In this document: in pieces, positions 1-4,753 of the stretch
Layout of the letters: each line of letters starts with the position of its first letter
How positions within the stretch are numbered: position 1 is the first letter of the stretch
Origin: a virus
Virus record (IMG/VR): IMGVR_UViG_3300023180_000256
Location: 1 to 30,947 of that record
Reading direction: 5' to 3' (one strand)
Length of the DNA stretch: 30,947 nucleotides
Position numbers and translations under genes: made by a program
The notes under the pieces: generated by a model
The model's database searches: none
What the model was told of the DNA's origin: nothing
Seen by the model: the letters and a program-made list of their open reading frames with translations, nothing else

Positions 1-3000
1 CATCTGCATAGAACTCTTGATATGAAGTGTTTGTAACATTAGATGTAGTACTAGAAGTACCCATAAGTGTCTCAGTACCACTAGAGTCTCTATGAAAAAC
101 TTTAAAGTAAAATCCTGCACTACCACCCGATGTGTTTCTTATACTACCTACAACGTGAACATTGATATAACCCGGATTACCATTAAATAAGCCTGCATCT
201 GCTATTACTGCACCTACTTCTTGGTCATTAACAGTGATAGAACCTGTTGATATATTTACAGCAGTTGAATCATAATCAGTATCAGATATGGAAGTAACCA
301 TTCTGTAGTAGCCACTGATACTTCCATCTGCTGTATCAGTAGGATAGAAAGTTAATGTAGATGCTAAAGTAGATTTATCAACTTTAGCTAAGTCTAATTC
401 ATCTAATGCACCTTTAACATTTGTTGCAGTTAAGGTATCAGCGTCTGATGGGTCATAAGATAAGTCAGCAGCGTCGTGATTAGAAATATCTGAAACTTGT
501 CCTGTTACATTTCCTGTTAAGTTTCCTATAAATGTAGAAGCTACAAAAGTCTCACTTCCTACTGTCCACCTATCATTGATTTCGTCCCAAATTAAAGTTT
601 TATTAGCGTCATCTCCACGCTCTATTTCAATTCCTGCATTTTCAGATGCTGAACCTGTAGCGTTAGAGTTAAATACAATTATGTTATCTGCAAGATTTAT
701 TGTTTCTGTATTTACTGTGGTTGTTGTACCACTAACAGTTAAGTTACCACTAACTGTCATATCATTGAAAGTTACATTATCAGATGTACCTACTGACTGA
801 CCTATAGATACTTCACCTGCTGATATAGAAACACCTGTTCCAGCAGAGAAGTGAGCCCTAACTTCAGTTGCTGATGGTCCAGTATAAGTAATTACTCCTG
901 TTGTACTGTTATATGCAAGACTTCCATCACCACCGGAGTCTGTTACCGATATCGCAGCTCTACTTCTAGCATCTGTGTAGTATAAATTACTTGAACCTTC
1001 TGTAACATCATCTGTGGTGTTGCTGGTTGTTATTACTGTTCCATCTATTGCGATAGTACCGGAAGAAATTGTTATACCGGTGCCTCCAGTGAAATGAGCT
1101 CTAACTTCAGACGCACTAGGACCAGTATATGTTATTACACCTGTACTTGAATTGTATGATAGCGAGCCATCCCCACCACTATCTGTGACGGATATCGCTC
1201 CTCTAGCATCAATATCTGTATATTGAGTAATAGTTGTAGATATTGTTTCTCCGGAAATACTTATTCCAGTACCTGCAATAAAACTACTTCCTTGAACCGA
1301 TACAACAGAATCTCCACCCATACCGGAATGGCTAGAGCAATAATAATATAATTTATCTGCAGTAGCAGCATTAACTACAATTTGAGTATAAGAACCAGCA
1401 GTTCCCGGAGTTCCGGATGTACTAACACCAGTAGTATAACTTGAACCACTATTATGAGTTCCATCTTTTGTTGTAGAAAATACTAATGGATGACCACTGT
1501 TAGAACTGTCAGATTGGTCAAACCTATAAACAGTTCCCGGTACAAGTTGTACACTTGCAGCAGTCTCACCATCTAAGTGATATTTATTTCCACTGACATC
1601 TGCTACTGTAACTGCAAATTCAACTATTGAATTACCAGCTACTTCTACAACACCTCCACCCATACCGGAGTGTGAACTACAATAATAGTAAAGTCTATCC
1701 GGAGTAGATGCATCTGCTTTTATTTCTACATAGGCACCAGTTGAACCTGCTGTTCCATTTGTAGTTACACCAGTTGTGTATGCAGAGCCACTGTTGTGAG
1801 TTCCATCTAATGTCTCTGAAAATACAAATGGGTGACCACTAACTGAAGAATCAGATACATCAAATCTATATGTTATTCCCGGTGTTAATTGTAAACTTCC
1901 TGCTACTTCACCATCTAATAAGTATTTATTAGAACCGGAAGCATTCGATACAGTAACCATAATTACTGAAATAATGTCGTTACTATCTTCAAGATTTATT
2001 GTTTTATTTTGTAAAGTCTGTGAACCAGTTAATGTAGCTACTGTAGAATCAATATCAAATACACCAGTTGAGCTGTTGTAATCTAATCCAGTACCACCGG
2101 ATACTGTAGCTCTTGCTCTTGCAGTCGTGTGATAAAGGTTTGTAGAACCTTCATTCATACTATCTGTATCAAATTCTGAGAAGTCTATGCTTATAGCACC
2201 TGTATTATAAGTTATTCCAGTTCCACCACTTAAGTGGCTGTCTACCAATGAATCTGCATAATATAAATTAGTTACACCTTCAGCTAAAGAATCTGTGTCG
2301 TGGTTAGAAATATCAGAAACAGTACCTGTTACGTCTCCAGTTAAATCTCCCTCAAAAGTAGCTGCGACAAATGTCTCAGAACCTACTGTCCACTTATCGT
2401 TAGTTTCATTCCATAATAAAGTTTTATTTGCACTGTCACCTCGTTCAATTTCTATTCCAGCATTTTCTGTAGGTGTAGCAGCAGAGTTAGAATTTAAAAT
2501 AATTATGTTGTCATCAACTGTTAATGTTTCAGTGTTTATATATGTAGTTGTACCGGATACAGTTAAGTTACCTTGTACTGTAATGTCACCATCAGCAGAT
2601 ATATCATTGAATGTAACATCAGATGTTGTTTCTACTGCTTGTCCTATAGATATTTCTCCGGAGGATATTGAAACACCGGTTCCTGCTGTAAAATGTGCTC
2701 TGACTTCTGAAGCTGATGGTCCAGTATATGTTATAACTCCAGTTGAGTTGTCATATGAAAGTGAACCATCTCCACCACTATCAGTTACAGAAAGTAATGT
2801 TCTAACTCTTTCGTTTGTATGATAAAGATTAGTTACACCTTCAGTCAAATCATCTGTATCAAAGTTGGATATAGATGAAACGGTTCCTGTTACGTTACCA
2901 GTGACATTACCTGTGACATCACCAGTTAAGTCTCCAGTAACGTTTACTGATATAGAGCTAGGTAATCCTATTGTTACAGTTTGACCACTAGCACTTGTTT

Positions 3001-4753
3001 CTATTTCGTTAGTGGTACCAGCAATTGTTAAAACTTGACTATCTAAATCAACTGAACCTGTTGAACCAGCATCACCTGCAATATCTAAATCCTCTGCTGT
3101 AACTTGTGCATCTACATAAGCAGTTGTTGCTACTTTAGTAGAGTTATCATTAGGAGATTGTGTTGTAGCAGTAACACCATCTGCAAGTACAGAAGTAGCT
3201 GTAACATTACCAGTTAAATCTCCGGTAACGTCTCCAGTAACATCTCCAGTTACATTACCTGTTAAATTAGCAATTACAGTTCCTGCTGCTAAAGTATCAC
3301 CATTAATGCTAAATCTATCGTTAGTTTCATCCCAGTAAAAATGTTTGTGTTGTAAGTTACCTCTTAAAAATTCTATTTCTACATTTAAAGTATTATCAGT
3401 ACCATCTGCGTCTTGATTTATAGATATAGTATTAGTTCCGTGGACTACTTGACCACCAGTTGTTAAGTCACCATCTATTTGAGCGTCTGCAAACTGTACA
3501 TTAGAAGTTGTTTCTACAGCCTGCCCAATACTTATTGTTGGTGTAGCTGTTTCACCACTATTGTTAGAAAGTGTTACACCTGTTCCGGCAACAAGACTAG
3601 CTACATAGTCACCTTCTGTATCAGTACCTAAGTTAAGTGGTTCGTTTACAAAAACTGAACCATTGTATCTAAGTATGTCACCTGTTGCAGTTGAAGTAAG
3701 AGTTACATCAGACAAGTCTCCAATACTAGCTGCTGCAATACGACCATCTGCTCTTGTGTCTGTATAGTATAAATTACTTCCCTCTGTAATACTTCCAGTA
3801 TCAAATTCTGTAAAGTCTATTGCTAAGGTAGGTGTTTGAGCTTCACCGGAAGTTATATCAATAGATATTCCAGTTCCACCTGTAATGCTTTCTACATAAT
3901 CACCAACAGTATCTGTTGCTAAATTAAGTGGGTCATTAATCCATACTGAACCGTTGTATCTTAAAACATCACCATCTGCTGGAGATGTTAAAGTGACATC
4001 GTTCATCTCACTTAATTCATTTTCAGAAGCTACTGCATCATCTACATAACTTTCTGTCGCATAACTATTAGTTGTTAGGTAAGTTCCGACCCTTGCGTCA
4101 GTGTAATATAAATTAGTTGAGCCTTCTGCTATATCATCAGTATCGTGATTACTTACATCTGATACTGTACCTGTAACATTACCGGTTAAATTACCAATAA
4201 ATGTTGCAGCTACAAAATCATAAGAACCTACTGTCCATCTATCATTAGATTCATCCCAAATAAAAGTAACATTGGTATCATCGCCTCTTTCAATTTCTAT
4301 ACCAGCATCTTCAGAAGCAGAACCTGTAGCATTTGAATTTAAAATAATTAGGTTGTCATCTACTGTTAAAGTTTCAGTTTCTAATATTGTTTGAGTACCG
4401 GATACTGTTAAATTACCGGATACTGTTAAGTTGTTAAATGTTGGAGAATCTGAAGAACTTAATCCTAAAGATGCTCTAGCTGTACTACCGGATTCTGTTA
4501 CAAAGTTGGTTCCATCACCAACAATAAAATAGCTGTCTCCCGGAGTTAATCCTGCAATATCATCTAATTGTGCATCCCAAGATTGAATATCTGTGCCAAT
4601 TACTAAACCTAAAGAAGTTCTTGCACCTGCTGCAGTTATTGCACCAGTACCACCGTCTTCTATTCCTATATATTCAGATGCTTGAAACTCGGCTAAACCG
4701 ACTAAATCGCCATCACCGTTGAAATCACCTCTGATTGGGGTTTTATTTGCCAT
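1..4753 (-). CDS. Giant repetitive tail fibre protein, 3' end outside the window
   Basis: An open frame of 1584 codons starts at ATG 4753..4751 (MANKTPIRGDFNGDGD) and is still open at base 1, so the C-terminus is missing. It lies three bases after the tandem stops TAA TAG of the upstream structural gene. The protein is low in Cys and rich in Thr, Ser, Gly and Asn. Three copies of a long module (INDEX motifs ETLTVDDN, IEIERGD, WDE.NDRWTVG, GNLTGNVTG, SNHDTDD, NLYYTDAR) lie near 4080-4440, 2220-2580 and 420-780. Other repeats contain TGPSASEVRAHF and SVTDSGGDGSLSY. Residues about 932-1155 hold two cupredoxin-like modules listed separately. Such beta-rich tandem modules are typical of long phage fibres that bind host surfaces; that role is inferred from repeat type and position at the end of the tail cluster. 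Adhesin or attachment protein is safe; the receptor is unknown. Confidence 0.85.
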   Translation of the reverse strand, partial: MANKTPIRGDFNGDGDLVGLAEFQASEYIGIEDGGTGAITAAGARTSLGLVIGTDIQSWDAQLDDIAGLTPGDSYFIVGDGTNFVTESGSTARASLGLSSSDSPTFNNLTVSGNLTVSGTQTILETETLTVDDNLIILNSNATGSASEDAGIEIERGDDTNVTFIWDESNDRWTVGSYDFVAATFIGNLTGNVTGTVSDVSNHDTDDIAEGSTNLYYTDARVGTYLTTNSYATESYVDDAVASENELSEMNDVTLTSPADGDVLRYNGSVWINDPLNLATDTVGDYVESITGGTGISIDITSGEAQTPTLAIDFTEFDTGSITEGSNLYYTDTRADGRIAAASIGDLSDVTLTSTATGDILRYNGSVFVNEPLNLGTDTEGDYVASLVAGTGVTLSNNSGETATPTISIGQAVETTSNVQFADAQIDGDLTTGGQVVHGTNTISINQDADGTDNTLNVEIEFLRGNLQHKHFYWDETNDRFSINGDTLAAGTVIANLTGNVTGDVTGDVTGDLTGNVTATSVLADGVTATTQSPNDNSTKVATTAYVDAQVTAEDLDIAGDAGSTGSVDLDSQVLTIAGTTNEIETSASGQTVTIGLPSSISVNVTGDLTGDVTGNVTGNVTGTVSSISNFDTDDLTEGVTNLYHTNERVRTLLSVTDSGGDGSLSYDNSTGVITYTGPSASEVRAHFTAGTGVSISSGEISIGQAVETTSDVTFNDISADGDITVQGNLTVSGTTTYINTETLTVDDNIIILNSNSAATPTENAGIEIERGDSANKTLLWNETNDKWTVGSETFVAATFEGDLTGDVTGTVSDISNHDTDSLAEGVTNLYYADSLVDSHLSGGTGITYNTGAISIDFSEFDTDSMNEGSTNLYHTTARARATVSGGTGLDYNSSTGVFDIDSTVATLTGSQTLQNKTINLEDSNDIISVIMVTVSNASGSNKYLLDGEVAGSLQLTPGITYRFDVSDSSVSGHPFVFSETLDGTHNSGSAYTTGVTTNGTAGSTGAYVEIKADASTPDRLYYYCSSHSGMGGGVVEVAGNSIVEFAVTVADVSGNKYHLDGETAASVQLVPGTVYRFDQSDSSNSGHPLVFSTTKDGTHNSGSSYTTGVSTSGTPGTAGSYTQIVVNAATADKLYYYCSSHSGMGGDSVVSVQGSSFIAGTGISISGETISTTITQYTDIDARGAISVTDSGGDGSLSYNSSTGVITYTGPSASEVRAHFTGGTGITISSGTIAIDGTVITTSNTTDDVTEGSSNLYYTDARSRAAISVTDSGGDGSLAYNSTTGVITYTGPSATEVRAHFSAGTGVSISAGEVSIGQSVGTSDNVTFNDMTVSGNLTVSGTTTTVNTETINLADNIIVFNSNATGSASENAGIEIERGDDANKTLIWDEINDRWTVGSETFVASTFIGNLTGNVTGQVSDISNHDAADLSYDPSDADTLTATNVKGALDELDLAKVDKSTLASTLTFYPTDTADGSISGYYRMVTSISDTDYDSTAVNISTGSITVNDQEVGAVIADAGLFNGNPGYINVHVVGSIRNTSGGSAGFYFKVFHRDSSGTETLMGTSSTTSNVTNTSYQEFYAD
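1290..1625 (-). other. Cupredoxin-like (type 1 copper) module 2 within the fibre
   Basis: Residues about 1043-1155, directly after module 1 and clearly its duplicate: both share YRFD, SGHP, DGTHNSGS, YTTGV and YYYCSSHSGMGG in the same order. The ligands are His1088, Cys1139, His1142 and Met1145, with the same 51-residue His-to-Cys distance. All four ligands are kept although intervening positions have diverged (for example LVFSTTKDG against FVFSETLDG), which suggests selection on the site. Confidence 0.6.
1634..1959 (-). other. Cupredoxin-like (type 1 copper) module 1 within the fibre
   Basis: Residues about 932-1040 of the fibre. The module has His974 in SGHPFVF, then Cys1025, His1028 and Met1031 in YYYCSSHSGMGG. 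That is the H ... C-x2-H-x2-M ligand set of type 1 copper sites, with the amicyanin-like short C-to-M spacing; His to Cys is 51 residues, within the range of known cupredoxins. Strand-like segments (TYRFDVSD before His, RLYYY before Cys) fit a Greek-key barrel. Copper binding is inferred from the ligands; the family relation is by motif only. Confidence 0.6.

Follow-up and report, generated by a model that had tools for sequence, protein, structure and literature searches.

Tandem cupredoxin-like modules with predicted type 1 copper sites in the tail fibre of an apparently marine siphovirus

What are two complete sets of type 1 copper ligands doing in the middle of a phage tail fibre? The question is raised by the DNA analyzed here (the window, i.e., the whole stretch of 30,947 bases), for which an earlier note had claimed two tandem type 1 copper, cupredoxin-like modules inside a tail fibre gene. 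Our answer, to which we give an even chance of being right, is that two cupredoxin domains stand in tandem in the middle of a siphovirus fibre, each with its type 1 site intact, and serve as copper-binding display modules that aid contact with the cell or the stability of the beta-sandwich. The relevant elements are the following:

2..4753, minus strand: tail-fibre open reading frame, 1584 amino acids, start at 4753, open at the left edge of the window (PHROGs structural and tail fiber families, gene order)
1640..1969, minus strand: cupredoxin module 1, residues about 929-1038 (motif, alignment, Pfam, tandem model)
1280..1639, minus strand: cupredoxin module 2, residues 1039-1158 (motif, alignment, AlphaFold2 model with pLDDT 92.7, fold matches)
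1832..1834, minus strand: candidate ligand His974 of module 1 (motif, invariant column)
1661..1681, minus strand: candidate ligand loop Cys1025-x2-His1028-x2-Met1031 of module 1 (motif, invariant columns)
1490..1492, minus strand: candidate ligand His1088 of module 2 (motif, invariant column)
1319..1339, minus strand: candidate ligand loop Cys1139-x2-His1142-x2-Met1145 of module 2 (motif, invariant columns)

The fibre gene and its two modules

The reading frame at 2..4753 matches the PHROGs families phrog_697 and phrog_30742 (structural, tail fiber), and the genes on the minus strand of the window follow a siphovirus-like order of terminase, head protease, capsid, tape measure and tail-tip protein, with the fibre frame in last place. 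It is this similarity to fibre families, taken together with a position after the tape measure and tail-tip genes, that identifies the product as a tail fibre. The virus is apparently marine and infects bacteria, and searches with its terminase and capsid retrieved distant relatives only. Close relatives align to the fibre protein from residue 1 on, and its N-terminus DFNGDGDLVGLAE (residues 10-22, window 4688-4726, minus strand) resembles an EF-hand/dockerin-like calcium-binding loop. A single HKH motif, of the type for which iron binding has been suggested in tail fibres, is located at residues 469-471 (window 3341-3349, minus strand), outside the two modules.

The claim that there are two tandem modules, each with a full set of His and Cys-x2-His-x2-Met, is borne out by the residues of the fibre protein and by a repeat period of 114 residues. 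SGHP is found at residue 972 in module 1 and at residue 1086 in module 2, YYYC at 1022 and 1136, respectively, and in each module the ligand loop reads Cys-Ser-Ser-His-Ser-Gly-Met and follows 51 residues after the first His. When aligned, modules 1 and 2 are 63% identical, and the two ligand cysteines are the only cysteines in the entire 1584-residue frame. The earlier remark that the four ligands are retained in both copies despite differences elsewhere holds for the pair and also applies to its relatives. Of 20,000 shuffled versions of the fibre protein, 4 contained the pattern His-x(40-60)-Cys-x2-His-x2-Met one or more times, whereas the real fibre has two copies; these shuffles, the invariant columns and the homology described below rule out a chance motif.

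A further statement, that the spacing is amicyanin-like, is right for only one of two distances. The short Cys-x2-His-x2-Met loop is indeed common to amicyanin and the modules. The distance from the first His to the Cys, however, is 51 in both modules, compared to 39 in amicyanin (H53/C92); the corresponding values are 47 for plastocyanin (H37/C84) and 53 for rusticyanin (H85/C138). Amicyanin in the strict sense is ruled out by this spacing.

Relationship to cupredoxins

The module pair exceeds the cut-off of the Pfam family PF00127, Copper-bind (23.9 versus 21.2 bits), while module 2 by itself falls below it (14.0 versus 21.2 bits), and a search of solved structures with the module pair only gave no match. 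When a profile built from 98 modules was aligned with plastocyanins of solved structure, each of the four ligands fell on its counterpart, albeit at a weak E-value of 0.068. In bacterial genomes, the same profile found Copper-bind proteins at E-values of 1.5e-7 and 2.6e-4, and here too the His, Cys, His and Met positions coincided. In a profile-profile comparison of the modules with six cellular Copper-bind proteins, a probability of 95.4 and an E-value of 1.7e-8 were obtained. Both modules thus have the ligand order of known cupredoxins and are in register with them. Because of the Copper-bind score, the profile matches with ligands in register and the profile-profile comparison, we conclude at the level of sequence that the modules are homologous to cupredoxins and go beyond mere resemblance. 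Eight of the 98 modules in alignment A2 also match Pfam PF25489, the At5g54830-like domain (best E-value 8.7e-5), which hints that a plant protein contains a related domain.

The structural prediction that the earlier note had called for points in the same direction. AlphaFold2, provided with the alignment of 98 modules, modelled module 2 as a confident beta-sandwich (mean pLDDT 92.7, pTM 0.86). When this model was compared with the PDB by Foldseek, the top rows were occupied by rusticyanin, pseudoazurin, plastocyanin, copper nitrite reductase and laccases, and one row was a pseudoazurin engineered to carry the ligand loop of amicyanin. The best match had an E-value of 1.1e-3 at a probability of 1.00; with E-values this modest and TM-scores of about 0.5, the match to the PDB is a distant one. 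In VIA-align, the first match was the N-terminal cupredoxin of Hyphomicrobium nitrite reductase (Z 9.0, rmsd 2.8, 98 aligned residues), and all 50 matches listed, down to a Z of 7.7, have the cupredoxin fold. For a predicted model, the agreement of these 50 rows is stronger evidence of the fold than the single Z value. A model of both modules in tandem, calculated from 9 close homologues, is moderately reliable (pLDDT 67, below 50 in the flanks), and for each of its modules the covering rows were again copper nitrite reductases and laccases. The predicted model and both structure comparisons thus agree on a cupredoxin beta-sandwich, with pseudoazurin and plastocyanin, two of the proteins proposed for superposition, among the matches. 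Predicted fold, profile homology and conserved ligands all uphold the structural part of the original proposal.

The nearest folds are therefore those of rusticyanin, pseudoazurin, plastocyanin and the N-terminal cupredoxin of Hyphomicrobium nitrite reductase, and the modules share with the plastocyanin/azurin family PF00127 the beta-sandwich and the order His, Cys-x2-His, Met, with ligands in register by profile. Unlike the members of this family, which are exported soluble electron carriers, the fibre modules are internal, tandem and part of a virion protein, and they differ from it by a long, well-conserved segment past the first His, DGTHxxGSxYTTGVTxxGTPG. The His within 'DGTH' (H986 and H1100; column 62 of alignment A1) is an additional one that lies 12 residues past the first ligand and is present in 93% of the modules that bear the segment. 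Tandem cupredoxin domains are also a property of two- and three-domain multicopper oxidases and of copper nitrite reductases, which provide the top VIA-align matches. In contrast to these enzymes, each fibre module has a full type 1 set, and when all His residues of the reading frame were listed, none of the HxH and HCH motifs of trinuclear clusters, which are associated with trinuclear or inter-domain copper, was found within the modules. An identity as multicopper oxidase or laccase was rejected on this ground.

Conservation and loss of the ligands

Among 98 diverse modules with a mean column identity of 42% (alignment A2), no column is invariant except those of the four ligands. Our initial scans of viral sequences and genomes had yielded 183 intact modules out of 183, a biased figure that was obtained with patterns partly overlapping the ligands. 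As such patterns could inflate conservation, the scan was repeated with patterns confined between the first His and the Cys, and tblastn hits in cultured phages were included. This ligand-unbiased scan retrieved 77 complete modules: one had Leu in place of Met (HCHL), one had lost all four ligands together (NSNL), and all others carried HCHM. The rescan thus uncovered real losses, and search bias could be dismissed as the cause of seemingly complete conservation: 183/183 became 75/77 plus a ligand-poor branch. Loss of the ligands in most homologues, which the earlier note had named as an outcome that would speak against a copper site, is the opposite of what is observed. A Leu replacing the axial Met is found in some known type 1 sites, where it alters the potential while the site is kept.

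In cultured phages, tblastn revealed HCHM in the Pelagibacter phages Mosig and Baldr, the methylophage Melnitz, P-SSM2, MED4-213, P-GSP1, S-TIM66, S-B68 and others. The first His and the Cys-His-Met loop have disappeared in structural proteins of six T4-like cyanophages (S-RIM2, S-SSM5, ACG-2014b and d, S-RIM8 and S-RIM14), the first His is the sole ligand left in the P-RSM6 module, and Cyanophage PSS2 gp080 has lost three of the four and retains the Met. In T4-like cyanophages, the ligand-less, diverged cupredoxin-like protein adjoins the tail-fibre gene, being encoded just upstream of it (loci L297, L298, L300, L301, L309 and L191). Across 236 copies, alternative synonymous codons are used at both His positions and at the Cys. 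Judged from these sequences, the ligands are under strong selection and tend to go as a set. The ligand-free branch of T4-like cyanophages keeps much of the domain, and the ligands are therefore not simply needed for the fold. Strong selection, joint loss and persistence of the domain without its ligands form the pattern to be expected if a metal site does more than hold the fold together.

It is at this point that a metal-free alternative has to be weighed, namely that the module is an Ig-like structural element whose Cys, His and Met are kept for packing or by recent common descent. Such an element would agree with the ligand-poor relatives in T4-like cyanophage structural proteins and in PSS2 gp080, and Ig-like folds are frequent as phage decorations. 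We nevertheless regard it as highly improbable in view of ligands that are the sole invariant columns at the given identity, codons that vary synonymously, and the tendency to vanish as a set, as seen in the NSNL module and in the combined loss of first His and loop in the six cyanophage proteins.

Another alternative accepts a metal but not copper: zinc or a different metal would be gained at the same site in the cytoplasm and act as a structural staple, and copper would never be used. Phage fibres fold in the cytoplasm, and recombinant cupredoxin type 1 sites can accept zinc in Escherichia coli. On the other hand, the axial Met, which zinc does not need, is almost always kept, and its retention argues for copper over zinc; moreover, both the profile and the fold comparisons lead to copper proteins. 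We consider a zinc staple unlikely, and the metal predicted at the ligand sites of the modules is very likely copper.

Distribution, carrier proteins and possible roles

The statement in the earlier note that related motifs occur in structural proteins of marine phages proved accurate on a large scale. The module is present in 363 of 50,697 phage records, all of them cyanophages, pelagiphages, methylophages or apparently marine phages, and at least 591 viral stretches match it; it is common among phages of marine cyanobacteria, SAR11 and OM43. A further 68 loci were detected in genomes of mostly marine organisms, some of which may be phage contigs binned with bacteria. The carrier proteins vary. 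Fibres with the module comprise the siphovirus fibre described here, the myovirus tail fibres of Mosig and P-SSM2, and the pelagiphage fibre of Baldr; in S-H34 the carrier is a 'baseplate wedge tail fiber connector', in S-TIM66 it is encoded by a structural gene near the portal, and gp080 of PSS2 (L188, 3992-4330) is a free-standing protein of 112 residues that consists of the module only and is annotated as a baseplate wedge subunit. Bacteroidetes reading frames of 5,494 and 7,362 residues contain the module as well, the former together with DUF285, FG-GAP and bacterial Ig-like domains. In the giant bacterial frames with the module (L290, L291, L293 and L296; up to 7,362 residues), DUF285, FG-GAP and Ig-like or InlB-type repeats were observed.

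Because its carriers range from diverse virion proteins to giant cellular surface proteins, the module looks like a mobile extracellular display module. Ig-like decoration domains are common, mobile beta-sandwiches that occur in variable copy number in unrelated phage virion proteins; the cupredoxin module resembles them in all these respects but has a type 1 ligand set, which is absent from Ig-like domains. A cupredoxin encoded by a marine phage is in itself not without precedent, as petE for plastocyanin is an auxiliary metabolic gene of cyanophages (PMC3037559). While petE stands on its own as a gene for photosynthetic electron transport and presumably acts in the infected cell, the module is part of a structural protein, and we reject an auxiliary photosynthesis gene since the modules are internal to a structural frame.

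We propose that the module is used as a surface-displayed domain in the manner of Ig-like decorations and of domains in giant cell-surface proteins, and that the predicted type 1 site of each module would take up copper. In the cytoplasm, where phage proteins acquire their fold, copper is sequestered and little of it is free; loading from seawater after lysis would therefore be the simplest and most likely route. The bound copper may then steady the sandwich, and the copper-His edge could help the fibre to establish or maintain contact with the surface of the cell. By stiffening or by displaying a contact surface, the metal-loaded module may favour adsorption or the stability of the particle, an effect also ascribed to Ig-like decorations. 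This role in adhesion or stability is inferred by analogy. Since the domain persists without ligands in some phages, copper does not appear to be generally required for a working structural protein.

A redox role has also been weighed, for example scavenging of superoxide, which would protect virions in sunlit seawater, or reaction with redox proteins on the host surface. In all well-studied relatives, to our knowledge, a type 1 copper that has an axial Met serves to transfer electrons, and the one homologue with Leu at the Met position carries a change known to shift the potential while keeping the site. We nonetheless judge a redox role improbable, given that a partner domain is absent, that the modules are devoid of multicopper-oxidase motifs, and that no genetic link to redox genes is apparent within the window. 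Specifically, a function as electron carrier is less likely because a partner is not recognisable on the fibre.

Finally, the fibre might offer copper as a 'Trojan horse' or docking device to copper or metallophore receptors in the host outer membrane. The proposal draws on ligands that are maintained by selection, on the placement of modules in fibres, and on the published analogy of putative iron-binding HxH motifs in tail fibres, for which a host-contact role has been proposed in T4 gp37 and Alteromonas phage R22Y (PMC11705849). The iron sites and the modules have in common that metal ligands on a tail fibre are proposed to make host contact, but site chemistry and fold are different and the modules lack HxH. 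The proposal is weakened by the mid-fibre position of the modules and by the variety of carrier proteins, as relatives in connector, near-portal and free-standing proteins are ill-suited to a receptor-binding tip. In addition, buried type 1 copper is tightly held, which is unlike a bait to be handed over. Overall, we see little prospect for this proposal.

Going back to display modules that would load copper after lysis, a much broader and rather doubtful extension would be that marine phages in general bear copper in their virions, in dedicated type 1 copper domains that are filled only after exit from the cell, that these domains could serve adsorption as a switch triggered by the environment or as a point of contact, and that the copper of ocean viruses might represent an uncounted pool of tightly bound copper. 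In the literature that we found, the metal described on tail fibres of marine phages is iron at HxH sites (PMC11705849), and our search, which covered open-access journal papers, found no report of a cupredoxin-type domain as a virion module in marine phages. The superfamily to which the domain belongs is known, whereas no searchable paper describes marine phages as using it in their virions.

The interest of the modules resides in their breadth and testability more than in a proven mechanism. With a selectively kept type 1 site in hundreds of ocean phages, the question of a redox metal in the virion becomes directly testable in laboratory systems: cultured carriers include P-SSM2, the S-TIM5 group, Pelagibacter phage Mosig and methylophage Melnitz, and the ligand-less cyanophage branch constitutes a natural control. 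Domains filed so far as hypothetical, structural or tail fiber protein also gain a name. In Prochlorococcus phage MED4-213, the large protein CPMG_00018 (L306, 2156-5435) contains two kinds of cupredoxin module, both HCHM, the second of which is nearer to the Copper-bind type of Bacteroidetes.
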